64,000 nt of DNA from Rhodospirillales bacterium. Lineage in GTDB: Bacteria; Pseudomonadota; Alphaproteobacteria; Rhodospirillales; UBA2165. The notes beneath the pieces are model-generated. The model had not been told where the DNA came from. It saw only the letters and a program-made list of their open reading frames with translations, and did no database searches. The stretch covers positions 186,001 through 250,000 of the forward strand of contig JAJDXO010000030.1 of NCBI GenBank assembly GCA_022823235.1. The letters are read 5' to 3'. A program made the translations under genes and the position numbers. Of this stretch, positions 888 to 63,125 are shown in pieces; the first letter of the stretch is position 1, and every line of letters begins with the position of its first letter.

Positions 888-1290
888 TTCGGTCGACCCC
901 GAAAGACGGTCTCCAGCTACTTTCGGGGTCAAGTTCCCGGGGCCGCGATTAAGCGAGGTCCATGTACAAGATGATCCTCATCCCCTGACCCTGGACCAGG
1001 ACAAGGTTCCAATGAGCCTGCTCGAATCATTCTATCGAAGCCGGTCTACCGGCGGTGCCGATTTACGGTCGGCTATCCGTCACGAGGTCATAATCGACGC
1101 CTCTCGCGAACGAGGGACAGTGCCGGAACGGGCCGCCGGCAGCCGATACGGGACCCATGGTACGAACGCCGCAGGTGAGAGATTCATCGCCGACCGCGGG
1201 TTCTTGCCGTGATAACCAAATTTGCACAGAATGCCGGTGACTGGCCGAATTCTTGTACCTCTTCTTGCACCTTGGGGGAGACAGCGGCAA
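888..1290. other. 403-bp gene-poor intergenic region
   Basis: Holds the hairpin at 895-930, a short dyad GCCGGT-ct-ACCGGC (1040-1053), and a 8-codon ORF MYKMILIP (962-988) behind an AAGCGAGG-like Shine-Dalgarno. ORFs 1012-1212 (+), 1063-1389 (-) and 1080-1379 (-) have no recognisable protein features and are treated as chance. The last 20 bp carry GGGGGAG, the likely ribosome binding site for the VOC gene at 1291. Confidence 0.5.
895..930. terminator. Hairpin after the UxaA gene, terminator-like
   Basis: Perfect 11-bp inverted repeat GACCCCGAAAG (895-905) and CTTTCGGGGTC (920-930) with a 14-nt loop, starting 7 bp after the stop codon. No T-run follows, so it may be a Rho-assisted terminator or an mRNA 3'-end stabiliser rather than a classical intrinsic terminator. 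Confidence 0.55.
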
Positions 1291-2256
1291 ATGATAAAGG
1301 TCGCCGATGTTGCGTATGCGCGCTTTGCGGAGCCGGATCTCGACCGAATGGAATCGTTTCTCGTCGATTTCGGCCTCACCCGGCAGCACCGGGATGAAAA
1401 ATCACTCTACATGCGCGGGACCGGCCGTGATCATCATCTCCACGTCACGCACCTCGCCGACGAGCCGGGGTTTATCGGCATGGCGTTCAATGCGCAAAGC
1501 ATGGCCGATCTCGAGAAGCTCTCGGCGGCCGACGGGGCGTCCGCGGTCGAGGAAATCGATGAACCGGGCGGCGGCTACCGGGTCCGGATGACCGACCCGG
1601 ACGGCTTTCAGGTCGAAGCCATCTTCGGACAGGCGACGCTCGACCCGTTGCCGCTCAACGAATTAATCGGCGCGGATCACGGCCCCGGGCGCCCACGGGG
1701 CGACGAAATTCAACGCGCCCGGAACATCGCCTGTCCGGTGATGCGGCTCGGCCACGTGGTCCTGGACGTTCCGGACTGCGGCGTCATGGACGAATTTTAT
1801 CGCCGCCATTTCGGATTTCTGCAATCCGACATCGCCTTCGTGCCTGGCGGCGATGACGAGCTGGCTCTGACTTTTCTTCGCTGCGACAAGGGCAAGGAAT
1901 ATGTCGACCAGCACGCGCTCCTGTTTACCAAGTCCAAAGAGCCAGGCCTCGCCCATATCGCGTTCGAGGTGGAAGACGTCAACGCCTTGTTCGTCGGGCA
2001 TGAATATCTTCATTCAAAAGGGTATGAGCATTCATGGGGCGTCGGCCGTCATACGCCGGCGGCGAACATTTTCGATTACTGGTTCGACAACTACGGCAAT
2101 CGGGTGGAGCACTTTTTCGGCGGCGATCTGTTGAACGAAGATGACGCGACGATAACCCACGACTCCATAGGCGAGATTCTGGAATCCCAGTGGGGTGCGC
2201 CGATGTCCGAACGCCGCGCTTCCCTCGAAACCGACTACGACCCGCTGAGAGGGTGA
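1291..2256 (+). CDS. Two-domain VOC protein, type I extradiol ring-cleavage dioxygenase-like
   Basis: The 321-aa product has two vicinal-oxygen-chelate halves. The C-terminal half carries the expected metal triad of type I extradiol dioxygenases (BphC/catechol 2,3-dioxygenase family): H155 in LGHVVLDV, H222 in LAHIAFEV and E273 in NRVEHF. The N-terminal half (about 1-115) has no complete triad, as in BphC enzymes. The family cleaves catechol rings next to the hydroxyls using Fe(II). I chose ATG 1291 rather than the track start 1222 because GGGGGAG lies 10 nt upstream and homologous proteins begin at the first beta strand. Neighbours are a UxaA enzyme, an aminotransferase and a TRAP transporter, suggesting catabolism of an imported compound; the real substrate is unknown. 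A similar enzyme ends the window (63145). Confidence 0.8.
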   Translation: MIKVADVAYARFAEPDLDRMESFLVDFGLTRQHRDEKSLYMRGTGRDHHLHVTHLADEPGFIGMAFNAQSMADLEKLSAADGASAVEEIDEPGGGYRVRMTDPDGFQVEAIFGQATLDPLPLNELIGADHGPGRPRGDEIQRARNIACPVMRLGHVVLDVPDCGVMDEFYRRHFGFLQSDIAFVPGGDDELALTFLRCDKGKEYVDQHALLFTKSKEPGLAHIAFEVEDVNALFVGHEYLHSKGYEHSWGVGRHTPAANIFDYWFDNYGNRVEHFFGGDLLNEDDATITHDSIGEILESQWGAPMSERRASLETDYDPLRG

Positions 2257-2266
2257 TGCCCGTCCC

Positions 2267-2292
2267 GAGTCTGGCCCCGACTCAATTTCTTT
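2267..2292 (+). terminator. Weak intrinsic terminator candidate after VOC gene
   Basis: GAGTC (2267-2271) and GACTC (2279-2283) form a 5-bp stem with loop TGGCCCC, followed by the T-rich stretch AATTTCTTT. The stem is short, so efficiency is doubtful. Confidence 0.35.
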
Positions 2293-2296
2293 GTGG

Positions 2297-2316
2297 ATTG
2301 TTTCCCGTGAAACAAT
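2297..2316. other. parS: Candidate parS centromere site (ParB binding)
   Basis: ATTGTTTCCCGTGAAACAAT is a 20-bp inverted repeat (8-bp arms, 4-nt centre). Its 16-bp core at 2299-2314 differs at a single position (A to C at position 7) from TGTTTCACGTGAAACA, the widely conserved chromosomal parS consensus. It is intergenic, between the VOC gene and the aminotransferase. ParB loads at such sites, which generally lie near oriC. The alternative is an operator of a local regulator; no regulator gene is adjacent. Confidence 0.6.
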
Positions 2317-2407
2317 GATCGGAATTGCGGACCCGCAATAAATTTGGGCAAGATCAAGCCCGGCGGCTCAATCCAGGCCGAATCGGCCGAATATTACCGG
2401 GGGAGAC

Positions 2408-3640
2408 ATGACCAGCAAATTTCAGCCCAGGTTCCGTAGCGATCTTCCCGCGCCGGCAAAACGTTGGAACGGGTTTCCCCGGTACAACTTCGTCGGCGGC
2501 CACAACGATGCCTCGGAGGTGCCGGTCGATGAACTGATCGCGGCTGCCGGTTCGGTTCTCGCCCGGGAGGGACGGACCTTGGCGTATTACGGATTGGAGA
2601 GCGGCGCGCAGGGCTATCTTCCCCTTCGGCGGCTTGTCTCGGCCCAGCTGACCGACCGGGCAAAAATGCGGGTCGGGGAGGACGACATCCTGTTGACGTC
2701 GGGCTCTCTCCAGGCTCTTGATTTGGTATTCGAGGCGTTTCTCGAACCGGGAGACACGGTGATCATCGAAGAGGCCTGCTACGGCGGGACGCTCAGCCGT
2801 CTTCAGCGGCTTGGGGCGACATATATAGGGATTGAAGTCGATCAGGACGGAATGAAGACCGGCCAGCTTACCGAAGTGCTGGGTGAATTGGCGGCCAAGG
2901 GACAAATTCCAAAGCTCATTTATACCATACCCACGGTTCAAAACCCCACCGGTACGGTGATGAGCGAAGCCCGCCGGATCGAGCTTCTGGCACTCGCCGA
3001 GAATTACGATCTGCCGATCTTCGAAGATGATTGCTACGCGGATTTGCTATGGGAAGGAGAGCGCCCGCCCTCCATCCGGGCGTTGGAGCAACAGGGAGCC
3101 GACAGCGGGCGGGTAATTTACTGCGGTTCCTTTTCCAAGACAGTCGCCCCCGCCTTGCGGGTCGGCTATCTGGTCGCCGACTGGCCGGTGCTCAGCCGCC
3201 TGCTGCCGCTCAAAACGGATGCGGGCAGCGGTGCGCTCGAGCAGATGGTCTTGGCGGAATACGGCGCGGAGCGGTTCGATGACCATGTCACCGACCTTTC
3301 GGCCGTCCTCAGGGAGAAAGCGGAACTCATGGCCGCGTCGCTGGCCGAACAATTCGGTACTCAGGTGGAGTTCACGGCGCCCAAGGGCGGAATCTTCATG
3401 TGGGTGACCTTTCCGGAGGAGGTCGACACGACCAGCCTTGCCGCGGCCGCTTTGGAAGAGGGAGTGGAGATCAATCCCGGCGTTGAATGGTCGGTCGACC
3501 CAGGCTACGGCCGTCGGCGTGTGCGCTTGTGTTTCGGCAGCGCGACCAAGCAGGAGATTTCCGAGGGCATCGCGCGGCTGGCCGATATTTGCCACAGGCA
3601 TACCGGCATCCCCACGCGAAGCGGCAATGTGGAACGTTAG
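2408..3640 (+). CDS. PLP-dependent aminotransferase, class I/II fold (2-aminoadipate aminotransferase-like)
   Basis: 410-aa fold-type I aminotransferase with GGGGGAG four bases before ATG 2408. Visible signatures: YGLESGAQGYLPLR near the N-terminus, NPTGTVMS (substrate/PLP contact), FEDDCYADLLWEG with the PLP-ring aspartate, the Schiff-base lysine in GSFSKTVAPALRVGY, and the distal RRRVRLCF arginine region. The sequence pattern is that of LysN/alpha-aminoadipate or aromatic aminotransferases also found as the catalytic half of MocR proteins; there is no N-terminal GntR domain here. It probably transaminates a substrate or product of the adjacent TRAP/VOC catabolic block. Exact amino donor and acceptor cannot be assigned. 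Confidence 0.85.
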   Translation: MTSKFQPRFRSDLPAPAKRWNGFPRYNFVGGHNDASEVPVDELIAAAGSVLAREGRTLAYYGLESGAQGYLPLRRLVSAQLTDRAKMRVGEDDILLTSGSLQALDLVFEAFLEPGDTVIIEEACYGGTLSRLQRLGATYIGIEVDQDGMKTGQLTEVLGELAAKGQIPKLIYTIPTVQNPTGTVMSEARRIELLALAENYDLPIFEDDCYADLLWEGERPPSIRALEQQGADSGRVIYCGSFSKTVAPALRVGYLVADWPVLSRLLPLKTDAGSGALEQMVLAEYGAERFDDHVTDLSAVLREKAELMAASLAEQFGTQVEFTAPKGGIFMWVTFPEEVDTTSLAAAALEEGVEINPGVEWSVDPGYGRRRVRLCFGSATKQEISEGIARLADICHRHTGIPTRSGNVER

Positions 3641-3976
3641 CGCCGGCCGGCCGGGAATCATTCGATGTCCAGGTTTACCTATAACGGGCGCTCGGCGCTT
3701 TGAACCCATCCGGAATGTCCGCTATAAAATGGGTTGTAGCGTTTGGAAAAATACCTCAGCATTTCAGTTACATAAAAAAAACCTCTTCCAAGCGCCGGGA
3801 GCTTCGACCGTCGGCGATATCGGCGAAAGGAATTGGATAGCGTTCGGAGTTGCGGGACCGATTGGCTCAAACGAAACTGCTTCGTGGGCCGGTTGCCGAA
3901 GTTGACCGTCCGCATGATCGCGGGCGGATTGAAAAACGGCCTAACCTATAGGCCATCAAGCAAGGAGGAAGACCAG
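3641..3976. other. 336-bp upstream region of the first TRAP operon
   Basis: AT-richer than its neighbours. It contains an inverted repeat CGCTA (3720-3724)/TAGCG (3737-3741) around TATAAAAT, and a second, GGCCTA (3938-3943)/TAGGCC (3949-3954), just ahead of the dctP ribosome binding site AAGGAGGAAG. Either could be an operator, but no regulator gene is adjacent and I cannot place the promoter firmly. The upstream in-frame start at 3833 in the ORF track is rejected because the signal peptide begins at 3977. Confidence 0.45.
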
Positions 3977-4978
3977 ATGAGATCATTATTCAAAGGCGTG
4001 GCGGCGATCGCCCTGGCGGCGGGTGTTGGTTTCGCCGGACAGGCGTCGGCGGCGGAGCTCAAGCTCGGCCACTTCATGTCCCCCAAGCACCCGATGCATG
4101 TCGGTGTATTTACGCCGCTGGCGAAGAAAATCGCCGAGGAATCGGGCGGCAGCCTGACGATCAAGATCTTTGACAGCGGCAAATTGGGCCGGGGCCCGGC
4201 TGCCCAGTACAAACGGACGAAAGAAGGTGCGTTCGATATCGGATTCGTGATCCTGGGTCTCGAGTCGGAGAGCTTCCCGAGGACGCTGTTGGCGGGCAAA
4301 CCCGGCGTCGGCAAAACGGCCGCGGAGGTTGCCGCCAATGTTTGGAACGTCTACGACAAGCACCTGAAAGAAGAGTTCAAGGACGTCGAGGTCCTCGGAA
4401 TTTGGGCGAACTACCCCAGTACCATTATTTCCAAAAAGCCGATCCGCAAACCCTCGGATATGAAGAACCTCGTCGTGCGGGCGCCTTCGAAGACCGACAT
4501 TCCGACGATCGAGGGGTGGGGCGCAAAGGCGTCGCAGATTCCGATCACGCAAACCTACGATGCATTCCAAAAGGGCACGGTGGATGTCGTCTATATCGCG
4601 CCGGCGGCGCTATACAGGCCCTGGAACCTGCATCAGCCGGCGACGCACGTGACGTTCGGGATCAAGGGATCGGCGGCCTTGTTCCTGCTCGGGTTGAACA
4701 AGGACAGCTGGAACAAGCTTTCCAAGGAGCACCAAGCTCTCCTCAAGAAACACACCGGCCGTGACTTTTCGATCAACGCGTCAAAGTATTGGCAAAGGAC
4801 CGACGAATTCGCGTTCAAACAGGTCGGCAAGCAAAAAGGTCTGGAAGTCATCAATCTGACGCCGGCCGAAGCGAAGGCGTTCGATGATTTGACGGATGCC
4901 GTCGTCAAACGTGAGTTGGACGAGGCCGCGAAGGGCGGTGTGCCGGCCCACGCCATCTTCAACAGCCTGATCAATTAG
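3977..4978 (+). CDS. dctP: TRAP transporter substrate-binding protein (DctP family)
   Basis: 333-aa periplasmic binding protein. The start at 3977 follows AAGGAGGAAGACCAG and yields a clean Sec signal peptide (MRSLFKGVAAIALAAGVG..., AXA site at ASAAE near residue 26). The body has the DctP pattern, with GKLGRGPAAQYKRTKEGAFDIGF and the conserved arginine region KNLVVRAPS that in this family grips a substrate carboxylate. It delivers an organic-acid-type ligand to the DctQM membrane complex encoded next, driven by a sodium gradient. Separated from dctQ by a 33-bp spacer that folds into a strong hairpin. Substrate unknown. Confidence 0.9.
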   Translation: MRSLFKGVAAIALAAGVGFAGQASAAELKLGHFMSPKHPMHVGVFTPLAKKIAEESGGSLTIKIFDSGKLGRGPAAQYKRTKEGAFDIGFVILGLESESFPRTLLAGKPGVGKTAAEVAANVWNVYDKHLKEEFKDVEVLGIWANYPSTIISKKPIRKPSDMKNLVVRAPSKTDIPTIEGWGAKASQIPITQTYDAFQKGTVDVVYIAPAALYRPWNLHQPATHVTFGIKGSAALFLLGLNKDSWNKLSKEHQALLKKHTGRDFSINASKYWQRTDEFAFKQVGKQKGLEVINLTPAEAKAFDDLTDAVVKRELDEAAKGGVPAHAIFNSLIN

Positions 4979-4989
4979 AGCGGTCAGGA

Positions 4990-5035
4990 GCCCGCGGGAG
5001 CTTCGAATATCATGAGCCACGACGCTCCCGCGGGC
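4990..5035 (+). promoter_or_regulatory. dctP-dctQ stem-loop that traps the dctQ start region
   Basis: Perfect 12-bp arms GCCCGCGGGAGC (4990-5001) and GCTCCCGCGGGC (5024-5035). The dctQ ribosome binding site GGGAG (4996-5000) is inside the left arm and its ATG (5012) is in the 22-nt loop; the right arm is inside the dctQ coding region. Predicted effects are reduced dctQM translation relative to dctP and protection of the dctP mRNA 3' end. Confidence 0.65.
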
Positions 5036-5593
5036 GACAATTCCGCCGAACAGGAAGACCCCGGTTTCCTGGGGAATTTCGATAAATTCTTGAGAGTCGT
5101 GGCGCTTTGGCTCGGCGGGGTGCTTCTCGCCGCCATGGTCATCCTCACATTCACGCATGTCGTGCGTCGCTATGTCTTCAGTGATCCGATCCATGGCTTC
5201 GTGGACATGGGGCAGATCATATTGGTCCTCGTGGTTGCCTTGACGGTCGCCTACAGCGGACGAACCGGGGGGCAGATAGCCGTCGAACTCATCGACGGCA
5301 TGGTGAGCAAAACAAAGCTTCGAATGGTAGAGATATTCGTCCGTCTCGTCGGATTCTTGATGATCGCGGCCCTCGCCTGTCAAATCGCGCTCGACGGACC
5401 AAAGGCCGAAGAGAACGGCGAGTTCACGGGCACCATCGACATATCATTTGAACCGTTCATGTACGTCCTCGCATTCGGCCTGGGGCTTTATGCCATTGTC
5501 CTTCTTCTGGAGGCGGTGAGGCTGATGCAGGATAAGGATATCGGACAAGAGCAGGCCCGGCTATTCGGTGGAGATGTGGATGGAACTATCTGA
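5012..5593 (+). CDS. dctQ: TRAP transporter small permease (DctQ family)
   Basis: 193-aa membrane protein with four hydrophobic segments (roughly residues 30-55, 65-85, 105-130, 145-170), the first preceded by a hydrophilic acidic N-terminus. The TRAP small-subunit pattern VVRRYVFSDPIHG is present. It pairs with the large permease DctM to form the sodium-driven inner-membrane translocator for the DctP-bound substrate. It overlaps dctM by 14 bp when the preferred dctM start is used, indicating translational coupling. Its own start codon lies in the loop of the 4990-5035 hairpin. Confidence 0.9.
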   Translation: MSHDAPAGDNSAEQEDPGFLGNFDKFLRVVALWLGGVLLAAMVILTFTHVVRRYVFSDPIHGFVDMGQIILVLVVALTVAYSGRTGGQIAVELIDGMVSKTKLRMVEIFVRLVGFLMIAALACQIALDGPKAEENGEFTGTIDISFEPFMYVLAFGLGLYAIVLLLEAVRLMQDKDIGQEQARLFGGDVDGTI

Positions 5594-7070
5594 CGCCCAT
5601 ATCGGCTTCATCGGCCTGATCGCCATGTTCGCGCTGCTGTTCCTGCGCATGCCCGTGGCGCTATCGATGATGGTGGTCGGATTCCTCGGCGCCTGGGCCA
5701 TCGAGGGGCCCCATCGGGCTTTCATCTACCTCAGTACGGAGACATTCGACATCGCGACGTTTCAAACGCTGTCGATTGTCCCGATGTTTATTCTGATGGG
5801 TAATCTGGCCGGCATATCGGGCATGAGCCGCGACCTCTATCGCGCCGCCTATGCATGGTTCGGACATTTTCGGGGCGGCCTTGCATCGGCCACCATATTG
5901 GGGTGTGCCGGATTTGCCGCGGTGAGCGGGTCATCGGTTGCCGGTGCGGTCACCATGGGCCGTGTGGCCCTGCCGGAGATGGAGCGCTACAAATACAGCC
6001 CGAGCCTGGCGACGGGCAGCGTCGCCGCCGGCGGAACGTTGGGAATCCTGATCCCTCCGTCAACCGGGATGATCATTTACGCCATTCTGACGGAGACATC
6101 CATTGGCGAGCTGTTCGTCGCCGGCGTACTCCCGGGCATATTGCTGACGGGGCTATTTCTTATCGCAATCGCAATCGTCACCCGGCTGAACCCGGCCGCC
6201 GGCCCGGCAGGCGCCAAGTCGTCCTGGCATGAGCGGTTCGTCTCCCTCTATGGGGCCTTCGCCCTCATCGGCATCGTCATCATTACCATCGGCGGAATCT
6301 ACGCCGGTCTGTTCACGCCGGTTGAAGCGGCCGGGATCGGCGCCTTCATCACTTTCCTGGTTGCGCTGGCCAAAGGGGCGATAAACGCGGTTCAAGCGCC
6401 GATGCCGGCCGCTGTCGGCGCGGCTGCCAGTGCCGATACCCCATCGCCGGCCTATGTGCTGCGGGCGGCCGTCGACAGCTTGAAACTGCGTCAGACCATC
6501 CTCCATACGCTGCGCACCACCGCCACGGTTTTCATGATCCTGATCGGAGCGCATGTCTTTATTCCGTTCATGGCGCTTTCGGGTGTGCCGGAAATCATCG
6601 TCGGCTTCCTGACCGGCCTCGACGTCGGCAAGATCGGTATCATCATCATTATTCTGCTTACCTACGTTGCCCTCGGAACCTTCCTCGAAGGCCTGGCGAT
6701 GCTGGTTCTCACCCTTCCGATCGTATTCCCGCTGATCCAGGAACTCGGCATGGGGCTGATCTGGTTTGGCGTGATCATCGTGATCGTGCTGGAGATGGGT
6801 CTGATCTCGCCCCCGGTTGGCGTGAACGTATTCATCGTGAAGGGCATTGCGCCCCATGTCCCGATGACGACGATTTTTGCAGGTATTTGGCCGTTCTGGT
6901 TCGCCATGGGAGTTTGCCTTGCCATCCTCGTGGCGTTTCCGGTGATCGCGACGCAGCTGCCGTGTTTGGCCTTCGACGCAATGAGTTTCGGAGAATGTTG
7001 GGAGGCCGCACCCTCGGTGCTTGACCCGCCGCCCGAGGATCTGGGCCCCGATCTCGGTCCTCCCACATAG
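5580..7070 (+). CDS. dctM: TRAP transporter large permease (DctM family)
   Basis: About 496-aa polytopic membrane protein, the transport subunit of the TRAP system. Family features include PMFILMGNLAGISGMSRDLY, GCAGFAAVSGSSVAGAVTMG and TLGILIPPSTGMIIYAILT, the conserved helical-hairpin motifs of the DctM/IT superfamily. The track start is a GTG at 5568; I prefer ATG 5580 because GGTGGAG (5567-5573) is then 6 nt upstream. Two oddities: a hydrophilic Ala/Pro-rich loop of about 50 residues in the middle (around KGAINAVQAPMP to SPAYVLR), and a C-terminal tail of about 30 residues ending in EDLGPDLGPPT that ordinary DctM proteins lack. A GC-rich palindrome GCTGCCCGGGCAGC follows at 7072-7085. Confidence 0.9.
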   Translation: MELSDAHIGFIGLIAMFALLFLRMPVALSMMVVGFLGAWAIEGPHRAFIYLSTETFDIATFQTLSIVPMFILMGNLAGISGMSRDLYRAAYAWFGHFRGGLASATILGCAGFAAVSGSSVAGAVTMGRVALPEMERYKYSPSLATGSVAAGGTLGILIPPSTGMIIYAILTETSIGELFVAGVLPGILLTGLFLIAIAIVTRLNPAAGPAGAKSSWHERFVSLYGAFALIGIVIITIGGIYAGLFTPVEAAGIGAFITFLVALAKGAINAVQAPMPAAVGAAASADTPSPAYVLRAAVDSLKLRQTILHTLRTTATVFMILIGAHVFIPFMALSGVPEIIVGFLTGLDVGKIGIIIIILLTYVALGTFLEGLAMLVLTLPIVFPLIQELGMGLIWFGVIIVIVLEMGLISPPVGVNVFIVKGIAPHVPMTTIFAGIWPFWFAMGVCLAILVAFPVIATQLPCLAFDAMSFGECWEAAPSVLDPPPEDLGPDLGPPT

Positions 7071-54089: not shown

Positions 54090-55067
54090 TTAGTTCATCT
54101 CCTTCACCGCGTCGCGCAGCATGGTGCGGACGAGTTCCTCGGTGGCGGTCGGCGTCCGGGCCTCGCGGACGGTGATGCCGACCGGCATGGGATCGATTTT
54201 GAGCTCGACGGGAAGCGCGCCGAGGTTGCCGTGTTCCTCGAGGCCGAGAAAATACCTCGGCATGATCATCAGCATGTCGGTCCGTCCCAGCAGCGACCGG
54301 GCCACCAGACCGGAACTGCATTCGATCGCCGCCTGGGGCAGCTCCAGGCCATGCTCGTTGAATATGTATTGAACCACGGGCCGGATGGTGGCGTTGGGGA
54401 GCGGCAGGATCCATTGGGCGTCGGCGAGATCCTCCAGCTCCGGCGGCGTGTCCCCCTTGAGCAGCGGATGATCGCCGCGGGCAATCACCACCCAGGGTTC
54501 GTGGTAAAGGATTTCCTGGGTCAGACCGCCCCGCTCGCCGTCCTCGATCATCCGGCCCACGACCATGTCCAGCTCGCCGGTCCTGAGCGAGGGAAGCAGT
54601 TGAGTGTGGACCCCCTCGTGAATGGTGATGCTGATGCCCGGGCGCTCCCGATGGAGATCGGCCAGCGCCTGCATCAGCGGCCCGCCCGAGACGCTCGGCA
54701 GGATGCCGAGCTCCAGCTTGCCGACGTACGCGTCCCGCAGGTCGGCGAGCTCGTTCCAGGCGGTGCGCATTTCCGCCAGGACCGACCGCACGTGATCGAC
54801 GAACGCCGCCCCGTACTCGGTGGGCGTGACGCCGCGGGTCGAGCGCTTGAACAGCGCGACACCGAGGGTGGCTTCCATCTCCTTGATGCTCTTGGAGACC
54901 GCCGGCTGCGTCATGTTGAGGAGCTCGGAGGCCTTGAGGATGTTGCGGTGCTCTGCGACGGTCACCAAAGTCTGCATCTGCCGCAGGGTCATCCGGGACA
55001 GCAACAGGCGATCGAAGCCGGGCGACGATGGCCGGCCGGAAACCGATGGCGTTTGTTCAGACGGCAT
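54090..55067 (-). CDS. LysR-family transcriptional regulator (GbpR/PcaQ-like)
   Basis: 325-aa LTTR. The HTH is RMTLRQMQTLVTVAEHRNILKASELLNMTQPAVSKSIKEME, followed by the type 2 periplasmic-binding-like effector domain (about 115-320), with the GbpR-group pattern RSTRGVTPTEYGAAFVDHVRSVLAEM. It faces the MetE-like gene and the TRAP/Rieske cluster. A box TATAAC-N6-GAATAA lies 8 bp before its ATG, suggesting autoregulation, and the same box recurs at the promoters of the TRAP and Rieske operons. Its inducer is probably the imported compound or an early product. Confidence 0.9.
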   Translation of the reverse strand: MPSEQTPSVSGRPSSPGFDRLLLSRMTLRQMQTLVTVAEHRNILKASELLNMTQPAVSKSIKEMEATLGVALFKRSTRGVTPTEYGAAFVDHVRSVLAEMRTAWNELADLRDAYVGKLELGILPSVSGGPLMQALADLHRERPGISITIHEGVHTQLLPSLRTGELDMVVGRMIEDGERGGLTQEILYHEPWVVIARGDHPLLKGDTPPELEDLADAQWILPLPNATIRPVVQYIFNEHGLELPQAAIECSSGLVARSLLGRTDMLMIMPRYFLGLEEHGNLGALPVELKIDPMPVGITVREARTPTATEELVRTMLRDAVKEMN

Positions 55068-55092
55068 ATGTCAGTATAACCGTTTGGAATAA
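55053..55092 (+). promoter_or_regulatory. LysR box copy A with overlapping promoter for the MetE-like gene
   Basis: TATAACCGTTTGGAATAA (55075-55092) fits TATAAC-N6-GAATAW, shared with two other sites at 59188-59204 and 59325-59342, and its ATAACC-N4-GG half resembles the PcaQ-type LTTR box. A rightward promoter TTGTTC (55053-55058)-16 bp-TATAAC (55075-55080) overlaps it. The position, on top of both divergent starts, suggests repression or autoregulation here rather than activation. Confidence 0.6.
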
Positions 55093-55108
55093 CCAAAGAG
55101 AGAAAATC

Positions 55109-56158
55109 ATGGCTGCCGAAACCGCGCCCCTCCGTTATCCGGTTCATCTCGTCGGTTCGGTTCCGCTCGAAAATGCTGGCGCGGTTCTCGACCTGACGGG
55201 GAAAATTCTCGGCGGCCGCTGCCAGAGATATCCGGACGGCGAAACCGGCGAGCGGCGAAACTGGATCGGCTGGCAGCTACGTGTATTCGAAGGTCAGGCA
55301 GCGCTTCGGCAGGCCGCCCGGCGGGAACGGGACTACCAGCTCCATCCGCCCTTCGAGTTCTCACCGGGCAAAGGCGCGGCCGACCTGGCCTTTGGGGAGT
55401 TGGGATTTGCCCGCGAAGCGATCGCCGGCTTCGCATTGTTCGAGTCGAAACAATCCGCCGGCGTCATCCCCGCCGAGGCCCGGTTTCTGGTCGCCATTCC
55501 GACGCCCTTCGCGCCGGTTTATTCATTTACCGCCTATGCCGTCCAAAGCGACGTATTTCCGGTCTATGAGGCGGCGATCCTCCGCGAACTCGATGAAATC
55601 TGCGCCTCGCTGCCCCATGAGGCGCTCGCCATACAATGGGACGTGGCGACGGAAATGAGCATATTCGAGGGGGTCTACGGCGTCCCGTTCGACGATGCCT
55701 GGGAGGTGCTCAACGGCCGTCTGGCTAAATTGGGGAATGCGGTGCCGAATAGCGTCGAGCTCGGATTCCACCTTTGCTACGGCAGCATGAACAACAGGCA
55801 TTGGAAGGAGCCGGATGATCTCGGCATGTGCGTCCGGGTCGCCAACGAGGTGTTGTCCCGGCTCGGCCGGCCGATGGATTTCCTCCATATGCCGGTTCCG
55901 GTCGATCGGAGCGATGACGGCTTCTTCGCGCCGCTCGGCGATTTAAGGCTCGCCCATGAGACGGAACTCTACCTCGGACTGGTTCACGACGACGGCCCGG
56001 ACGGCAACCGCACCCGGCTCCAGACCGCGGCGCGGCACTGGGACCGTTTCGGAATTTCGGCGGAATGCGGTCTGGGCCGCTGGGAGCCGGAAGACGTTCC
56101 ACGATTGATCCAGGCCCATGCGGACCTTGTAGACGCCCGAATCAGAACATCAGGCTGA
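55109..56158 (+). CDS. MetE-like/UROD-superfamily protein (cobalamin-independent methionine synthase II-like)
   Basis: 349-aa protein from ATG 55109 (AAAGAGAGAAAATC upstream); the track start at 55028 lies inside lysR. It resembles the C-terminal catalytic barrel of cobalamin-independent methionine synthase, with a candidate zinc site H221-x-C223 in FHLCYGSMNNRHW and C320 in SAECGLGRW; E247 could be a further ligand. The full two-domain MetE is about 750 aa, so this is a stand-alone barrel likely acting in methyl transfer from a substrate of the cluster, not in methionine synthesis (inference). Also visible: ARYPDGETGERRNWIGWQ at the N-terminal barrel mouth (as RYPDGETGERRNWIGWQ). Its 3' end overlaps the convergent dctM by 17 bp. 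Confidence 0.7.
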   Translation: MAAETAPLRYPVHLVGSVPLENAGAVLDLTGKILGGRCQRYPDGETGERRNWIGWQLRVFEGQAALRQAARRERDYQLHPPFEFSPGKGAADLAFGELGFAREAIAGFALFESKQSAGVIPAEARFLVAIPTPFAPVYSFTAYAVQSDVFPVYEAAILRELDEICASLPHEALAIQWDVATEMSIFEGVYGVPFDDAWEVLNGRLAKLGNAVPNSVELGFHLCYGSMNNRHWKEPDDLGMCVRVANEVLSRLGRPMDFLHMPVPVDRSDDGFFAPLGDLRLAHETELYLGLVHDDGPDGNRTRLQTAARHWDRFGISAECGLGRWEPEDVPRLIQAHADLVDARIRTSG

Positions 56159-57455
56159 TCGGCCAGGAAACGATGGCCGGGATGAACAGCACGATCAAAA
56201 TCGCCAGCACGTCGCAGATGAGAAAGGGGACCGCGGCCCGGTAAATCTCGTTCATACCCGTCCCCCTCGGCGCGACGCCCTTCATCACGAACAGGCCCGC
56301 CCCGAACGGCGGCGAGGTCGACCCGGTTTCGATCGCGATCAGGTAGAGCACCGCGAACCAGATGGGATCGAAGCCCAATTGCTGCACCACCGGAATGAAC
56401 ACCGGCAGGGTCACCAACATGATCGGCACCGGGCTCATCACCATGCCGAGCAGGATCACCAGCACCACCATCAGGCCGACCACGGTGATCGGGCTCGCTT
56501 CGATGCCGAGGATCACTTCGACGAGACCGGACGTCGCGCCGGTGAAGGCCAGCATCTGGGTGAAGGCGAGGGCGCCGGAGATGATCAGCAGCAGCATGAC
56601 CGATATTTCGAGGCTGCCGACGATCGCTTTCTTGAACACCGTCCAGGACATCCGGCGCTGGAAAACGGCGAGGAGGAAGGTGGCGAATGCGCCGGACGCC
56701 GCCGACTCGGAGGGCGTCGCAAACCCGGCGAAGATAACCCCGACGACCATGAAGATGATGAAGCCGACCGGCACGATATGAACGGCCGCGACCTTGAGCT
56801 TTTCCGGCCACGGGATCGGTTCCACCTTGAACGACGGCGCAACATCCGGATCCACGAAGCAGCGTCCGATGATGTAGAGCGCGTAGAGAACCGCCATGAT
56901 GATGCCGGGCAGGATGATGGCGATCAGAATTTTGCCGATGGACAACTCGGCCACCACGCCCAGCAGGACGGCCAGTCCGCTGGGCGGGATCATGATTGCG
57001 AGACCGCCGCTGCCGAGGATCGGTCCCAGCGACATGGGCTTTTTGTAGCCCCGCTTCTCCATCTCCGGCACCAGCGTGGAACCGAGCAGCGCGATACTGC
57101 CCATGCTGTTGCCGGTCAATGCGGAGAACAATACGCCGCCGCCGACGGCCATGAGGGCGAGCCGCCCGCGGAGACTGCCGAACCATTTGTCCAGCGCATC
57201 CATCAGGCTGAGCCCGATTCCCGAATGGAACATGATCTCGCCCATCACCAGAAACAGGGCGACGGGAACCAGGGTGAATGTGGTGATGGCTTCGGAGACC
57301 TGGGTCACGAGCTGTATCAGCCCGGTGAAGCCGCCGAAAAACAGAAAGGAGCCGACGAAATTCACCACAAGAAAGGCAAAAGCGACCGGCATCCCCAGGA
57401 ACATGAGGACGAACAGAGGCCCCATGATCGCGATGAAGGCTTGCCACCACTCCAT
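56142..57455 (-). CDS. dctM: TRAP transporter large permease (DctM family), second system
   Basis: 437-aa membrane protein, a standard DctM length without the tail seen in the first system. Typical segments: FLVMGEIMFHSGIGLSLMDAL, VGGGVLFSALTGNSMGSIALLG, LGSGGLAIMIPPSGLAVLLG and GSTSPPFGAGLFVMKGVAP. It translocates the DctP-bound substrate with sodium. Last gene of the leftward dctP-dctQ-dctM operon; 13 bp separate it from dctQ. Convergent with the MetE-like gene. Confidence 0.93.
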   Translation of the reverse strand: MEWWQAFIAIMGPLFVLMFLGMPVAFAFLVVNFVGSFLFFGGFTGLIQLVTQVSEAITTFTLVPVALFLVMGEIMFHSGIGLSLMDALDKWFGSLRGRLALMAVGGGVLFSALTGNSMGSIALLGSTLVPEMEKRGYKKPMSLGPILGSGGLAIMIPPSGLAVLLGVVAELSIGKILIAIILPGIIMAVLYALYIIGRCFVDPDVAPSFKVEPIPWPEKLKVAAVHIVPVGFIIFMVVGVIFAGFATPSESAASGAFATFLLAVFQRRMSWTVFKKAIVGSLEISVMLLLIISGALAFTQMLAFTGATSGLVEVILGIEASPITVVGLMVVLVILLGMVMSPVPIMLVTLPVFIPVVQQLGFDPIWFAVLYLIAIETGSTSPPFGAGLFVMKGVAPRGTGMNEIYRAAVPFLICDVLAILIVLFIPAIVSWPISLMF

Positions 57456-57468
57456 GCGTCCCGCCCCT

Positions 57469-57984
57469 CTAGTCCTCGCTGAGCGACAGGGGCCGGCCGG
57501 TGAGCGCCCGCACGCCCCGGCGCAGGAATTGGCAGCCGAGGAGGAACAGGCCGAACGGCACCACGGCGGTGATCCAGAAGGTGGCCGGCGCCATGACCGT
57601 CGGTTCGCGAATGTCGCTCACGAACTGATCGATGACGGTGAGAATTCCAAACCAGGTGATGACGAAGCAGACGATTGCGGCAACCAGGGACAGCACCAGA
57701 TGAAGGTACTTGGCCCGGCTGGGGTCCATGCGTTCGAGGATCAGGTCGATGGAAACATGCTTGTCGTTGCCGAGCACCCAGGCGGCCGCGAGGAATGTTA
57801 TGTAGAGCAGCGTGATTTCGCTGAGTTCAACCAGCCACAAATTGGAAATGTCGAAGAACGACCGGCTGACGATCTCGACGCAGATGGCGGCGGTGAGAGC
57901 GACAAGGAGCGCACAGGCAATAAACGCGAGCCCGCGGTTGAACCAGTCGAACCATCTGGTCAACGTTGTCAGCACGTCTTGCAT
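57469..57984 (-). CDS. dctQ: TRAP transporter small permease (DctQ family), second system
   Basis: 171-aa four-helix membrane protein from ATG 57984 (MQDVLTTLTRWFDWFNRGLAF); the track start at 58020 is a TTG and adds 12 residues. Contains the small-permease pattern CVEIVSRSFFDISNLWLVELSEITLLYITFLAAAWVLGNDKHVSID, where the DKHVSID stretch is a hallmark of the family. It forms the membrane complex with DctM. A strong hairpin separates it from dctP. Confidence 0.92.
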   Translation of the reverse strand: MQDVLTTLTRWFDWFNRGLAFIACALLVALTAAICVEIVSRSFFDISNLWLVELSEITLLYITFLAAAWVLGNDKHVSIDLILERMDPSRAKYLHLVLSLVAAIVCFVITWFGILTVIDQFVSDIREPTVMAPATFWITAVVPFGLFLLGCQFLRRGVRALTGRPLSLSED

Positions 57985-58027
57985 CTGCGTGTCCGGCGCC
58001 CCTCGAATGCGGGGAGGCAAATAGCCG

Positions 58028-58061
58028 CCCGGCCGGAAACGGCATGCCGCTACCGGCCGGG
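58028..58061 (-). promoter_or_regulatory. Intercistronic stem-loop between second dctP and dctQ
   Basis: CCCGGCCGG (58028-58036) pairs perfectly with CCGGCCGGG (58053-58061); the loop itself holds the palindrome CGGCATGCCG (58040-58049). There is no T-run. Probably a transcript stabiliser or attenuator that keeps the binding protein more abundant than the permease, parallel to the hairpin at 4990-5035. Confidence 0.6.
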
Positions 58062-58096
58062 TCCATGCTACCCGAGAATGACGGAAATAGCCGGGG

Positions 58097-59077
58097 CTAT
58101 TTCATCAGCATCATTTTAAGCTTTTCGGCCTCCATGGGCGCCTTCTTCTTGATGTCCATCCACGGCGCCTCATTCACCAGCTGCAGGAACTTCTCGCGTT
58201 CCGCGCCGGTGAACTCGACCTTTTTGATGCCCTCCTTCATGATCGTTTCGTAACCCGCCTTCAGGTTGGCGTTCCAGCTGGCTTCGTAGGTGGCCGCATC
58301 GGCGGTACGCACAAAGTTGATTACCTTGGCCTGGGTTGCCGCGGGAACCTTGGCCCAGGATTTCGGATTGGCCAGGAAGTGGAAGGTGGCGCGGTAGAAA
58401 CCGGGCTCCACATAGGCGCCGACGACGCCCTTGTACTGCTCGGCGACACCCGAAACGCCGGTGACGAAGCCTTGCACCACGCCCCGCTCCATGGAGGTGT
58501 AGATTGCGGGCATCGGCAGCACCACCGGGTTGGCGCCGAGGGCGGCCATCGCCGGGCGGATCGCCGGGAAGACGCGAATCTTCAGACCCTTGAAATCTTC
58601 GAGCTTTTTAATCGGCTCCTTCAAGAAGATGTGGAACCGAAGCTGAGAGACCGGCAGCTCGCCGATATAGACCAGGCCCTTAGCCTTGTGCAGTTCGGTC
58701 ATGTAGTCGTGATAGCCGGTCGCCTTGATCTCCGCGTACTGCTTGTTGGAGTAGTTGGCGGTGCCGGACACGTTCAGGATGCCGTTGGCGTAGCTGGGGC
58801 TGGTGAGGGTCATATCGACCGAGCCCAGGCGCACGGCGTTGGGTTGCTTGAACTGCTTGATAACTTCCGGACCGCCGCGGTGATCGATTTGGAACTCGCC
58901 CTTCATCTCCGCGTTCAGGCGTTTCATGAAGGCGTCGAATGTCCTCCCGATCGGCGTCGAAAGCGGCAGCATGGTGACGAGCTTCAACGTCACTTCGGCT
59001 GCGTTGGCTACCGGCGCCGTAAATACCGTCGCTCCCATGGCGATGGCGGCAGTCGTGGCAATAAGTGTTTTCTTCAT
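58097..59077 (-). CDS. dctP: TRAP transporter substrate-binding protein (DctP family), second system
   Basis: 326-aa periplasmic binding protein. ATG 59077 has GGGAGGAAAC upstream and gives the signal peptide MKKTLIATTAAIAMGATVFTAPVANAAE; the track start at 59167 is too long. It has the DctP core, with LEDFKGLKIRVFPAIRPAMAALGANPVVLP containing the conserved substrate Arg and YTSMERGVVQGFVTGV. The hydrophobic-polar mix around PAIRP differs from dicarboxylate binders, so the ligand may be an aromatic or other carboxylate. Transcribed leftward from the mirror-image LysR-box promoter at 59138-59204. Confidence 0.92.
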   Translation of the reverse strand: MKKTLIATTAAIAMGATVFTAPVANAAEVTLKLVTMLPLSTPIGRTFDAFMKRLNAEMKGEFQIDHRGGPEVIKQFKQPNAVRLGSVDMTLTSPSYANGILNVSGTANYSNKQYAEIKATGYHDYMTELHKAKGLVYIGELPVSQLRFHIFLKEPIKKLEDFKGLKIRVFPAIRPAMAALGANPVVLPMPAIYTSMERGVVQGFVTGVSGVAEQYKGVVGAYVEPGFYRATFHFLANPKSWAKVPAATQAKVINFVRTADAATYEASWNANLKAGYETIMKEGIKKVEFTGAEREKFLQLVNEAPWMDIKKKAPMEAEKLKMMLMK

Positions 59078-59137
59078 GGTGGGTTTCCTCCCTATCCCGA
59101 GGTCATGTGTTGATGTTGGCTTTGATGAGACGCGGCA

Positions 59138-59204
59138 GATTTTAAAAATCATTGTCATAAAAGGCATATGAATTTATCCGCCGCCGATATTCGATTCCGT
59201 TATA
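59138..59204 (-). promoter_or_regulatory. LysR-box promoter module for the second TRAP operon
   Basis: Reading leftward: box TATAACGGAATCGAATAT (59204-59187), then, 32 bp after the box start, the element TTCATATGCCTTTTATGACA (from 59172) ending in the -10-like TAAAAT (59144-59139). The box centre lies about 64 bp ahead of the predicted start point, typical for a LysR activator. It matches the plus-strand module at 31 of 35 positions in the promoter-proximal element. Confidence 0.7.
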
Positions 59205-59324
59205 TCAAATCCGGATTAAACAATTCGGTTCGAACGAACCGCCGTCAAACTCTCAGCTTCTTGCTCTTAAATCAAGGGGTTGGCCCGGGGTTGAGCCGGC
59301 CGCCCCAGGAATCAGGGCATCTAA

Positions 59325-59391
59325 TATAACGATCGGGAATAATCAGAGCCCCTTTTTTCATAAGCCTTTTATGACAATCATTCTTAATATC
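59325..59391 (+). promoter_or_regulatory. LysR-box promoter module for the Rieske operon
   Basis: Box TATAACGATCGGGAATAA (59325-59342), then, 32 bp after the box start, TTCATAAGCCTTTTATGACA (from 59357), which contains the dyad TCATAA-gcctt-TTATGA (59358-59374), and the -10-like TAATAT (59385-59390). There is no good -35, as expected for an activator-dependent promoter. Geometry is identical to the minus-strand TRAP module. Confidence 0.7.
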
Positions 59392-59524: not shown

Positions 59525-60595
59525 ATGGATGGGAAAACGATGTCGACATCTAGCGCGCTTCAGGATGGGCCGACCAGTGCCGAGGCGCTGGTCAACAGCG
59601 GCCTGAGAAATCTTTGGTACCCGGTCGCCCCGAGTTGGATGGTGCGGGAAGCACCGATCGGCGTCACCCGCCTCGGTGAGCGAATCGCCCTCTGGCGCGA
59701 CCAAAACGGCGATGTGCACGCGGTCGAGGATCGCTGCCCCCACCGCGGCGCCCGGTTGTCTCTGGGCTGGAACGTCGGCGACCGGCTGCAATGCTGGTAC
59801 CACGGCGTGCAGGTAGGAACCGACGGCACCGTTCTCGAGGTGCCCGCGCTGCCCGATTGCCCCATGAAGGGCCGGAAACTGAACCGGTCCTATGCGGTCA
59901 GGGAAATCCGCGGCGGCATCTTTCTTTATTTCGGCGATGCGGCACATCCGGAGCCCTGTGAACTCGAGCTTCCGGAAGAACTGACCGACGAAGACAAACA
60001 CGGGGCCATTCTCTGCACCGCAACCTGGAACACCAACTATCGCTATGCCATCGAAAATGTCATGGATCCCATGCACGGCGCCTACCTGCACCGGGAATCC
60101 CACTCCATGTCGGAAGGCTCCGAGATCGCCAAGTTTACCGCCCGCAATACGGACCAGGGCTATGTTTTCGAGAAAGAAGGCCAGACGGGGGTCAACTTCG
60201 ACTGGGTCGAGTTCGGCCAATCCGGTGCCGACTGGTTCCGGTTGACCATCCCGTATCCCCCAAAGTCGGGCCCGGGCGGCCATTTCGGCATCATCGGGTT
60301 TGCGACACCCGTGGACGAAACCCACACTCAGGTGTTTTTCTGGCGGACCCGCGAGGTGTCCGGGTGGCTTCGGGATATGTGGCACTTCCTCTATCGGATG
60401 CGGTTCGAGAAACGCCACTGGGATGTGTTGGAGCAGGATCGCGTTGTCCTCGAAGCGATGTCCGATGACGCGCGGGAACACGAAAACCTTTATCAGCACG
60501 ACGGCGGAGTGACCCGCCTCCGGCAGATTTTGCACCGGGCCGCCGAGGCACAGGTCAAGGAACTGGCGGAAGCGCACGCCCAAGCGGCCGAGTAG
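59525..60595 (+). CDS. Rieske non-heme iron oxygenase, alpha subunit
   Basis: 356-aa ring-hydroxylating or demethylating oxygenase. The N-terminal Rieske domain binds [2Fe-2S] through CPHRGA and CWYHG; the C-terminal catalytic domain has the mononuclear iron motif D-x2-H-x4-H in NVMDPMHGAYLHRES. Length and single-subunit look resemble vanillate O-demethylase or carbazole/oxoquinoline-type enzymes (group I RHOs). No reductase gene is in the visible cluster, so electrons must come from elsewhere or from beyond the window. ATG 59540 is an alternative start. First gene of a rightward operon from the LysR-box promoter. Confidence 0.9.
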   Translation: MDGKTMSTSSALQDGPTSAEALVNSGLRNLWYPVAPSWMVREAPIGVTRLGERIALWRDQNGDVHAVEDRCPHRGARLSLGWNVGDRLQCWYHGVQVGTDGTVLEVPALPDCPMKGRKLNRSYAVREIRGGIFLYFGDAAHPEPCELELPEELTDEDKHGAILCTATWNTNYRYAIENVMDPMHGAYLHRESHSMSEGSEIAKFTARNTDQGYVFEKEGQTGVNFDWVEFGQSGADWFRLTIPYPPKSGPGGHFGIIGFATPVDETHTQVFFWRTREVSGWLRDMWHFLYRMRFEKRHWDVLEQDRVVLEAMSDDAREHENLYQHDGGVTRLRQILHRAAEAQVKELAEAHAQAAE

Positions 60596-60605
60596 GGAGA
60601 GGATC

Positions 60606-60905
60606 ATGTCCGACGCATTCAATCCATGGCTGGCCGCCAAGCGGCGCAACAAGGGCGACGAAGGCACGGTTCTGCCTGTCGACAGCTCGCAAAACGTCCT
60701 ACATCAGACGCGCAGCCGGGTTCCCACCGACTATGAGGAATCGCTCGCCGATGCCCTCGAGGACATTTTTGCCGCGGGACATCACGAACTCCCGGAGATC
60801 GTCGCCAAGCTGAACGAATCCACTGTTCCGGCGCCGGGCGGCGTTGCGTGGACCGAGGGTTCGTTCAAACAGGAGATGAGCCGGCTCGCGACCGATACCA
60901 ATTGA
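60606..60905 (+). CDS. Small recombinase-like helix-turn-helix protein
   Basis: 99-aa protein. The C-terminal part, IVAKLNESTVPAPGGVAWTEGSFKQEMSRLA, strongly resembles the HTH linker of large serine recombinases (LN..G.P.P.G..W....), but no catalytic resolvase domain is present. I recall such short 'recombinase-like HTH' proteins beside Rieske oxygenase genes in other proteobacteria; their function is unknown to me. It lies 10 bp after the Rieske gene and 47 bp before the SDR gene, so it is an operon member. It could be a DNA-binding modulator or a repurposed fold serving the oxygenase. Confidence 0.7.
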   Translation: MSDAFNPWLAAKRRNKGDEGTVLPVDSSQNVLHQTRSRVPTDYEESLADALEDIFAAGHHELPEIVAKLNESTVPAPGGVAWTEGSFKQEMSRLATDTN

Positions 60906-60952
60906 GGGGATGCCCCCGGGCTCCCGCAACCCATGGCGGAACATGACCGGCA

Positions 60953-61705
60953 ATGACGGCGATCGTCGATCTTTCGGACAAACGCATCCTGATCACGGGC
61001 GGTGCGCGGGGCCTTGGCCGGGCCTTCGCGGAGGCCGCCCATGGGGCTGGCGCCAATTTGGTGATTGCCGATATTCTGGAAGACCAGGGGCGGGCCGCGG
61101 CATCGGAACTCTCGGGAGCCAATTTCTCGACGCTCGACCTTGCCGATCCGAATTCGGTGATCCGTTGCATGGAAGACGCCATATCGGCGCTGGGCGGACT
61201 GGACGGCTTGGTCAATTGCGGGGCCGTCGCGACGGGAATCGGCGGACCGTCGATGACCGAGATCGACATCGAAACATGGGACCGCGTCATGAGCGTCAAC
61301 GTTCGCGGGACCTGGCTGATGAGCCGTGCCGCGGTGCCCCATCTGGAAGCGGCGGGCGGCGGCAAAATCGTCAACATCGCGTCGGACACGGCGCTCTGGG
61401 GCGCGCCGGCCCTCATGCACTACGTGGCGTCGAAGGGCGCGGTCATCTCAATGACCCGTTCCATGGCCCGGGAGCTGGGCAACAAGGGGATCGCGGTCAA
61501 CTCGGTGGCGCCCGGGCTCACGTTGGTCGAGGCCACCGAATATGTGCCGGACGAGCGGAAACGGAATTACATCGATGGACGGGCGATGAACCGGCCGCAG
61601 CACCCGGACGATGTGACCGGTGCGGTTCTGTTCCTGCTATCCGACGGCGCCAGCTTCATAACCGGCCAGTGCCTGCCGGTAAACGGCGGATACGTCCTGA
61701 ACTAG
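60953..61705 (+). CDS. Short-chain dehydrogenase/reductase (SDR)
   Basis: 250-aa classical SDR. NAD(P) motif TGGARGLGRAFAEAA, structural NCGAVATG (variant of NNAG), catalytic Ser region IVNIASDTALWG and YVASKGA with the Tyr/Lys pair. The acidic residue after the second beta strand (VIADILED) favours NAD over NADP. It probably oxidises a cis-dihydrodiol or alcohol made by the Rieske enzyme (inference). Cytosolic, part of the Rieske operon. Confidence 0.9.
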   Translation: MTAIVDLSDKRILITGGARGLGRAFAEAAHGAGANLVIADILEDQGRAAASELSGANFSTLDLADPNSVIRCMEDAISALGGLDGLVNCGAVATGIGGPSMTEIDIETWDRVMSVNVRGTWLMSRAAVPHLEAAGGGKIVNIASDTALWGAPALMHYVASKGAVISMTRSMARELGNKGIAVNSVAPGLTLVEATEYVPDERKRNYIDGRAMNRPQHPDDVTGAVLFLLSDGASFITGQCLPVNGGYVLN

Positions 61706-61736
61706 CGAACGCACTTTTCCGGAGGAGACAAGAACA

Positions 61737-62282
61737 ATGCCTGACGCAACCGAAGTGATGACCGACGATGTGTCGGTCCCCCGTCCCGAGGGGGCGAGCC
61801 TGGAAGAATGGCTGACCACGCGGATTGCCCGTTACGCGACCCGCACCCTCGATTGGGACGCGCTCAAGTTCCAAGCCGACTATGATCCCAAGTACCGGCG
61901 CTCCCAGATGCGCTATGTGGGCACGGGCGGAACCGGTATCGAGAATGACGAAAATACCGTGCCGGCGGAGCATTTCACCTTCTCGACCATGGTGCTGCCG
62001 GCGGGCTGCGAAGGGCCTCTTCACATTCACCGGGATGTGGAGGAGGTGTTCTTCATCCTCAGGGGCAGCAAGATCAAGCTGATGTTCCATACCGAAGACA
62101 AGTCGGAACAATGGGAGACCCACCTCGGCGAACGGGACCTGATCTCCGTTCCGGCCGGCGTCTACCGCGGTCTGGTCAATGAGGGCCAGGAAGAGGCGCT
62201 GATGTGCGTCATGCTGGGCGCCAAGATACCGGCCACGCCCACCTATCCCGACGATCACCCGGTCTCGAAGCTCAAACGCTAA
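61737..62282 (+). CDS. Cupin-domain protein
   Basis: 181-aa protein with one cupin barrel (about 75-160). Motif 1 reads GPLHIHRDVEEVFFILRGS with two His and a Glu metal ligands; motif 2 is less regular (LISVPAGVYRGLVNEGQ, where the expected final His is not evident). It could be a dioxygenase, isomerase or decarboxylase of an aromatic/keto-acid pathway. GGAGGAGA precedes the start, in operon with the SDR and aspartate dehydrogenase. Confidence 0.85.
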   Translation: MPDATEVMTDDVSVPRPEGASLEEWLTTRIARYATRTLDWDALKFQADYDPKYRRSQMRYVGTGGTGIENDENTVPAEHFTFSTMVLPAGCEGPLHIHRDVEEVFFILRGSKIKLMFHTEDKSEQWETHLGERDLISVPAGVYRGLVNEGQEEALMCVMLGAKIPATPTYPDDHPVSKLKR

Positions 62283-62312
62283 CCGGGTTCCAAGGGGAAC
62301 GAGGGGAAGTCC

Positions 62313-63125
62313 ATGAAGGAAGTCCGGGTGGGACTGATCGGCTACGGCGGCATCGTTCGCAAGGTGCTTGCCGAACTGCCGCGAGTCGCGGGGCGCGGTA
62401 TCGGCGTTACGGGCGTACTCGTGCGGCCGGGGCGTTGTGACGCCGCCCGCCAGGCATTGGGCGACGGGGTGCCGCTCTACGAAACCCTGGACTCCTTTGT
62501 CGCCGCCGGGCCCACCATCGTTGCGGAATGCGCGGGGCACACGGCGGTCGACGATTACGGTGAGGCCATCCTCCGGGCGGGCATCGATCTGATGGTGGTG
62601 TCGATCGGCTCGCTTTCCGACCGGGATCGCCATGAGCGTTTGGTGCGCGCCGCCCGGGAGGGAGGTGCACACCTGATCCTGCCCTCGGGCGCCATCGGGG
62701 CCGTCGACGCGCTTTCGGCGGCGCGGATCGCGGGTCTGACCAGCGTCACCTACCGGTCCCGCAAACCGCCGGCGGCCTGGATGGGAACGCCCGCGGAATC
62801 GTTATGCGACCTCGGCAATCTCAGTTCGGCGACGACCTTCTATCAGGGCGACGCCCGGGACGCGGCGCGGCTGTATCCAAAGAACGCCAATGTGGCGGCT
62901 ACGGTTGCGCTGGCCGGCATCGGGTTCGACGATACGCAGGTCGAGCTGTGCGCCGATCCGACCACCGACTGCAATATCCATGAGATCGAAGCGGAAGGCG
63001 TGGCCGGTTCGTTCAGGATCGAGCTCAAGGGCAATCCGATCCCCGAAAACCTGAAGACATCCATGTTGACCGCCCTCAGCGTTGCCCGCGGATTGGCCAA
63101 CATGGCGGCGACGACGGTTATCTGA
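62313..63125 (+). CDS. L-aspartate dehydrogenase-family protein
   Basis: 270-aa NAD(P)-dependent enzyme of the AspDH/NadX family (COG1712). Rossmann motif RVGLIGYGGIVRKVL, central LPSGAIGAVDALSAARIAGL, YPKNANVAATVALAGIGFDDTQV and the catalytic His in CNIHEIEAEG. The family interconverts aspartate and iminoaspartate/oxaloacetate with ammonia. Within a Rieske/SDR/cupin operon it may act on an amino- or imino-acid intermediate rather than in NAD synthesis, and no nadA/nadC is nearby. GGGGAAG-like ribosome binding site upstream. Confidence 0.88.
   Translation: MKEVRVGLIGYGGIVRKVLAELPRVAGRGIGVTGVLVRPGRCDAARQALGDGVPLYETLDSFVAAGPTIVAECAGHTAVDDYGEAILRAGIDLMVVSIGSLSDRDRHERLVRAAREGGAHLILPSGAIGAVDALSAARIAGLTSVTYRSRKPPAAWMGTPAESLCDLGNLSSATTFYQGDARDAARLYPKNANVAATVALAGIGFDDTQVELCADPTTDCNIHEIEAEGVAGSFRIELKGNPIPENLKTSMLTALSVARGLANMAATTVI

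Follow-up and report, generated by a model that had tools for sequence, protein, structure and literature searches.

A putative LysR-type regulon linking a TRAP importer with a Rieske-oxygenase operon in a Rhodospirillales bacterium

Related systems, the regulator and its neighbouring genes

ThnR, the LysR-type regulator (LTTR) of the tetralin genes in Sphingopyxis granuli TFA, has a primary site centred at -64 that is followed by a conserved secondary region (PMC4834489). PcaQ of Sinorhizobium meliloti and Agrobacterium is described as having the site ATAACC-N4-GGTTAT and as governing a degradation operon together with the importer pcaMNVWX (PMC3557286; PMC5002191). For OccR at occQ of Agrobacterium, the dyads IR1 and IR3 are placed at -64 and -33 (PMC5002191). 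Because PcaQ controls an importer along with a degradation operon, and ThnR two close divergent promoters, the mechanism considered here is already established, and the present case is well conserved but ordinary.

The locus lies in a window of 64,000 nucleotides (positions 186,001 to 250,000 of contig JAJDXO010000030.1, assembly GCA_022823235.1) from a Rhodospirillales bacterium; its features are collected in Table 1. It has in common with the ThnR regulon a LysR-type regulator, a pathway of apparently aromatic type and two close divergent promoters that would be activated, and the ThnR sites, a primary one at -64 and then a secondary region that is kept from promoter to promoter (PMC4834489), correspond to those at -63.5 and about -31 here. 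The two systems differ in regulator, site sequence and pathway, and in the putative inclusion of an importer among the targets here; moreover, ThnR requires ThnY and activates its own transcription (PMC4834489). Cooperation of the ThnR promoters via a DNA loop has been shown (PMC4834489), whereas a loop at the present locus is hypothetical. As with PcaQ, one regulator would preside over a degradation operon and an importer, but the importer is of the TRAP type here and an ABC transporter there, and the operon is not a pca operon. The OccR dyads at -64 and -33 are close to the positions of -63.5 and about -31 found here; OccR differs in having a single target promoter, octopine as inducer and an overlapping third dyad (PMC5002191).

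Table 1. Genes and putative regulatory sites at the locus (coordinates of the window)
Feature	Position	Strand	Basis or remark
lysR, LysR-type regulator, PcaQ-like, 325 aa	54090..55067	-	Pfam + NCBIfam
Lone LysR box beside lysR, TATAACCGTTTGGAATAA	55075-55092	+	Exact match; kept in G001, G002
dctM, TRAP large permease	56142..57455	-	Pfam DctM; NCBIfam dctM
dctQ, TRAP small permease	57469..58020	-	Pfam DctQ
dctP, TRAP solute-binding protein	58097..59077	-	Pfam DctP
Shared element, dctPQM promoter: palindrome-like TCATATGCCTTTTATGA (59171-59155) + -10 TAAAAT (59144-59139)	59138..59172	-	
Putative primary LysR box, dctPQM promoter, TATAACGGAATCGAATAT	59204-59187	-	Exact match; kept in G001, G002, G008
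Putative primary LysR box, oxygenase-operon promoter, TATAACGATCGGGAATAA	59325-59342	+	Exact match; kept in G001, G002
Shared element, oxygenase-operon promoter: palindrome TCATAAGCCTTTTATGA (59358-59374) + -10 TAATAT (59385-59390)	59357..59391	+	
Rieske oxygenase (VanA_C type), first degradation-operon gene	59525..60595	+	Pfam Rieske + VanA_C
HTH_62 small protein, SDR, cupin, aspartate-dehydrogenase-like protein	60606..63125	+	Operon genes

The lysR product contains the HTH_1 (PF00126) and LysR_substrate (PF03466) domains of an LTTR, both above the Pfam cut-off. Its top NCBIfam model is TF_pcaQ (TIGR02424) with 221.8 bits against the PcaQ equivalog cut-off of 303.8; the protein is thus an LTTR closest to PcaQ, yet under the PcaQ cut-off. 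TsaR, an LTTR, controls a Rieske-oxygenase operon for p-toluenesulfonate. The structure of TsaR, regulator of tsaMBCD, is the solved structure nearest in sequence to the lysR product (PDB 3fxq, E 2.8e-31), as a distant match only. Orthologues were found in three genomes only, G002 (98% identity), G001 (95%) and G008 (73%), with no further close one among 385 genomes of the class; a GTDB scan returned the same three as close relatives and otherwise unrelated LysR proteins. Plasmid-borne relatives were distant, below 45% identity among the matches listed, and were left out of the footprinting; no similar box was found near the PcaQ-like paralogues in the same genome. This PcaQ-like branch has so far been seen only in uncultured Rhodospirillales-like bacteria, and for it the locus offers a sharply defined candidate recognition sequence with a conserved putative secondary site.

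The start of dctP is likely at 59077 and not at that of a longer reading frame from 59167; a start at 59077 gives a signal peptide and is preceded by GGGAGG (GGAGG) before ATGAAGAA. With this start, element and box would both lie upstream of dctP. The operon on the other strand runs on beyond the window with genes for a VOC/glyoxalase-fold dioxygenase, an alpha/beta hydrolase, an SDR and a TPP enzyme, and looks like a degradation pathway for an aromatic-type compound. Its HTH_62 protein (60606-60905, plus strand), which has a recombinase-like helix-turn-helix, is encoded between the oxygenase and SDR genes, and it may be a regulator of the operon or a partner in DNA binding. Beyond the window, at 3335-6945 (minus strand) of L019 and facing the end of the operon, are genes that by eye resemble those for xanthine-dehydrogenase/CO-dehydrogenase-type large and FAD-binding subunits.

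Boxes, shared element and promoter geometry

The preliminary description had claimed three boxes of the form TATAAC-N6-GAATAW, and all three were found to be exact at the positions and on the strands given. The genome search that it proposed for the motif returned 3 and only 3 exact hits across the assembled genome (G000, 3,775,704 bases), all at this cluster within 4.3 kb, against about 0.06-0.14 expected from base composition. At all three places the box reads TAT-N11-ATA. It agrees with the LysR consensus, both as T-N11-A and as the longer CTATA-n9-TATAG (PMC5002191). To the PcaQ site quoted above it is similar in its ATAAC and a dyad-related right half, although that half is GAATA here and GGTTAT in PcaQ. 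The canonical PcaQ box ATAACC-N4-GGTTAW was tried at the lysR box, where the left half fitted and the right half did not; the whole genome contains no exact PcaQ box. When one mismatch was allowed in TATAAC-N6-GAATAW, the genome gave 10 matches and a reversed control 8, and no wider regulon is therefore claimed.

At the two divergent promoters, an element TTCATAWGCCTTTTATGACA begins 32 nt from the start of the box (a 14-nt gap after its end) and is followed by a TANNAT -10. That the two 35-base elements agree in 31 of 35 bases when one is inverted, as had been reported, was confirmed on both strands, and the -10-like hexamers were likewise as described. The element TTCATAWGCNTTTTATGACA has just these two matches in the genome at two or fewer mismatches, the next match having three; outside these two places its 20-base core has no match with two or fewer mismatches. 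Chance similarity in AT-rich promoter sequence would be favoured by the composition of the intergenic region, 51% GC in a window of 64% GC. It is nevertheless a negligible prospect, as the observed 31 identities exceed those in all 300 dinucleotide shuffles of the region (best inverted 35-mer match 28, mean 22.2), box and element are unique in the genome, and their combination is kept in four genomes, another genus included, and absent from 293.

The preliminary description had further spoken of duplicated, inverted copies of one promoter. A recent inverted duplication, in which the similarity would reflect common descent and not function, might account for the 31 identical bases in inverted orientation. 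Only the box, the element and the -10 are common to both promoters, however, and the remainder stands at background (identity 3/14 in the gap, 1/6 in N6, 9/30 upstream and 11/43 downstream); both kinds of block are also kept in another genus in which the promoters are not adjacent. Such a duplication is accordingly very improbable. What stands, on comparative genomic grounds, is the proposal of a LysR-linked regulon joining import and degradation genes by one promoter design; the wording of duplicated copies does not.

All promoter-relative positions given here depend on a predicted transcription start set about 7 nt after the -10. Measured from it, the box is centred at -63.5, near -64 as had been proposed and near the -65 expected of an LTTR. 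The dyad TCATAA-N5-TTATGA within the element, perfect in the plus copy, is centred at about -31, 32.5 bp downstream of the box centre, and the element keeps its distance of 32 nt in eight promoters (see below), the kind of constant spacing expected of a secondary site near -35. No -35-like hexamer is present 17 bp from the -10, where AAGCCT is found (59362-59367). The element was also considered as an ordinary -35 and rejected: a spacing of 16-18 bp from the -10 yields no -35-like hexamer, and ATGACA and TTCATA stand at 8 bp and 22 bp. A recognisable -35 is usually missing in activator-dependent promoters. Given this lack and a geometry like that of OccR and ThnR, the element is best read as an activation site that is at once part of the core promoter and stands in for a -35. 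Across the eight promoters the element is better conserved than the box, which counts against its reading as a secondary site; secondary LysR sites are usually the weaker ones.

Distribution of the composite promoter

A composite of box, 14 nt and element was searched with up to three mismatches in 297 genomes of the order. It was found in four of them, in two copies each, and these are precisely the genomes with the LysR orthologue; none of the 293 others had it, and a reversed control gave no match among the 297. Two further members of the family, G007 and G015, possess dctP orthologues (67% and 61%) with no composite upstream of dctP, and no LysR orthologue was found in them in the search. 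This distribution is expected if box and element belong to LysR. Exact boxes elsewhere in G003, G006, G008 and G015 are without the element (the one in G015 is inside a coding frame) and are therefore taken as chance occurrences.

The eight promoters, from two genera, share the blocks TATAAC...GAATA, TTCATAWGC.TTTTRTGRC and TANNATC at fixed spacing, with a variable gap and N6. The four genomes make up one family and three of them one genus (LysR 95-98% identical), so that independent support comes chiefly from G008. In G008 the composites lie on either side of lysR, one ahead of dctP and the other facing away from lysR; that the mirror-image pairing in the preliminary description is essential to the design is thus not supported. 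By eye, positions 1204-5946 of its contig L016 carry lysR, dctPQM, a FAD monooxygenase-like gene and the start of a Rieske-type gene, and it appears that the same regulator and importer are coupled there to a different oxygenase set.

The divergent boxes are 138 bp apart from centre to centre, equally in G001 and G002, and are not adjacent in G008. As in the ThnR pair, there are two close divergent promoters, each with a putative primary and secondary site. The 120 bp between the boxes show 7-13 substitutions and no indels among the three species of the genus; the constant distance is compatible with looping but is not evidence for it.

It might be argued that the palindrome serves a second regulator as its operator, for example the HTH_62 protein or a GntR/MarR-type repressor, which would block RNA polymerase while LysR acts at the box only. 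This would fit the perfect symmetry of the plus copy, a conservation above that of the box, and a position across the -35 region like that of repressor operators. On the other hand, every occurrence of the palindrome in the genome is accompanied by the LysR box. All eight promoters, from two genera, place it 32 nt from the box, as would be expected of a secondary LysR site, and no other regulator has been shown to travel with it. We consider a second regulator unlikely.

Proposed regulation and the lysR promoter

The reading preferred here, and which we hold to be quite probable, is that the adjacent LysR protein activates the dctPQM and Rieske-operon promoters through box and palindrome, the box beside lysR being most likely a site of autorepression. 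The regulator would bind the TAT-N11-ATA box as its primary site at all three places, and at the two divergent promoters a second dimer would contact TCATAA-N5-TTATGA near -31. With its inducer bound (the probable candidates are the imported compound and a pathway product), it would recruit RNA polymerase to the TANNAT -10, and import and degradation would thus be switched on together. One regulator would in this way couple a TRAP importer and a Rieske/ring-cleavage-type operon, both uncharacterised, suggesting that the substrate of the importer feeds the pathway.

Just 7 bp separate the lysR ATG from the third box, which is oriented away from lysR and sits in the 41-bp gap to a divergent gene. 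This box has no element downstream and no fitting promoter geometry, a lack on which the preliminary description was silent, and the notion of three boxes working alike was not upheld. G008 has a box with one mismatch 8 bp away from its lysR ATG, likewise oriented (L016: box 149-166, ATG 175); this box does have the element after it and points towards a gene past the end of the contig. Where the element would stand, the divergent gene begins in the genus of the window (ATG 55109). The lysR box therefore cannot drive this gene by the same geometry, which makes autoregulation its likely role. As the box is without the element and overlaps the lysR start region, it most likely serves autorepression of lysR, and the box 7 bp upstream would mediate this negative control.

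On the lysR strand, a -10-like TATACT (TATATT in G008) that overlaps the box ends 5-6 nt ahead of the start codon (55067-55092, minus strand), and no ribosome-binding site is evident ahead of the ATG. As a hypothesis, the lysR promoter is possibly leaderless and self-occluded. A more elaborate model, in which LysR joins the two composites in a loop (138 bp, about 13 helical turns), lysR is leaderless with its -10 in the third box occluded, and the secondary palindrome is a high-affinity site, unlike the usual weak activation sites, is speculative and rather doubtful.

The divergent neighbour of lysR (55109-56158, plus strand) encodes 349 aa without a Pfam match at E values up to 10 or an NCBIfam match at 0.001; by eye the protein looks MetE/UroD-like. 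A relative is apparently located upstream of dctP in G007 (L024).
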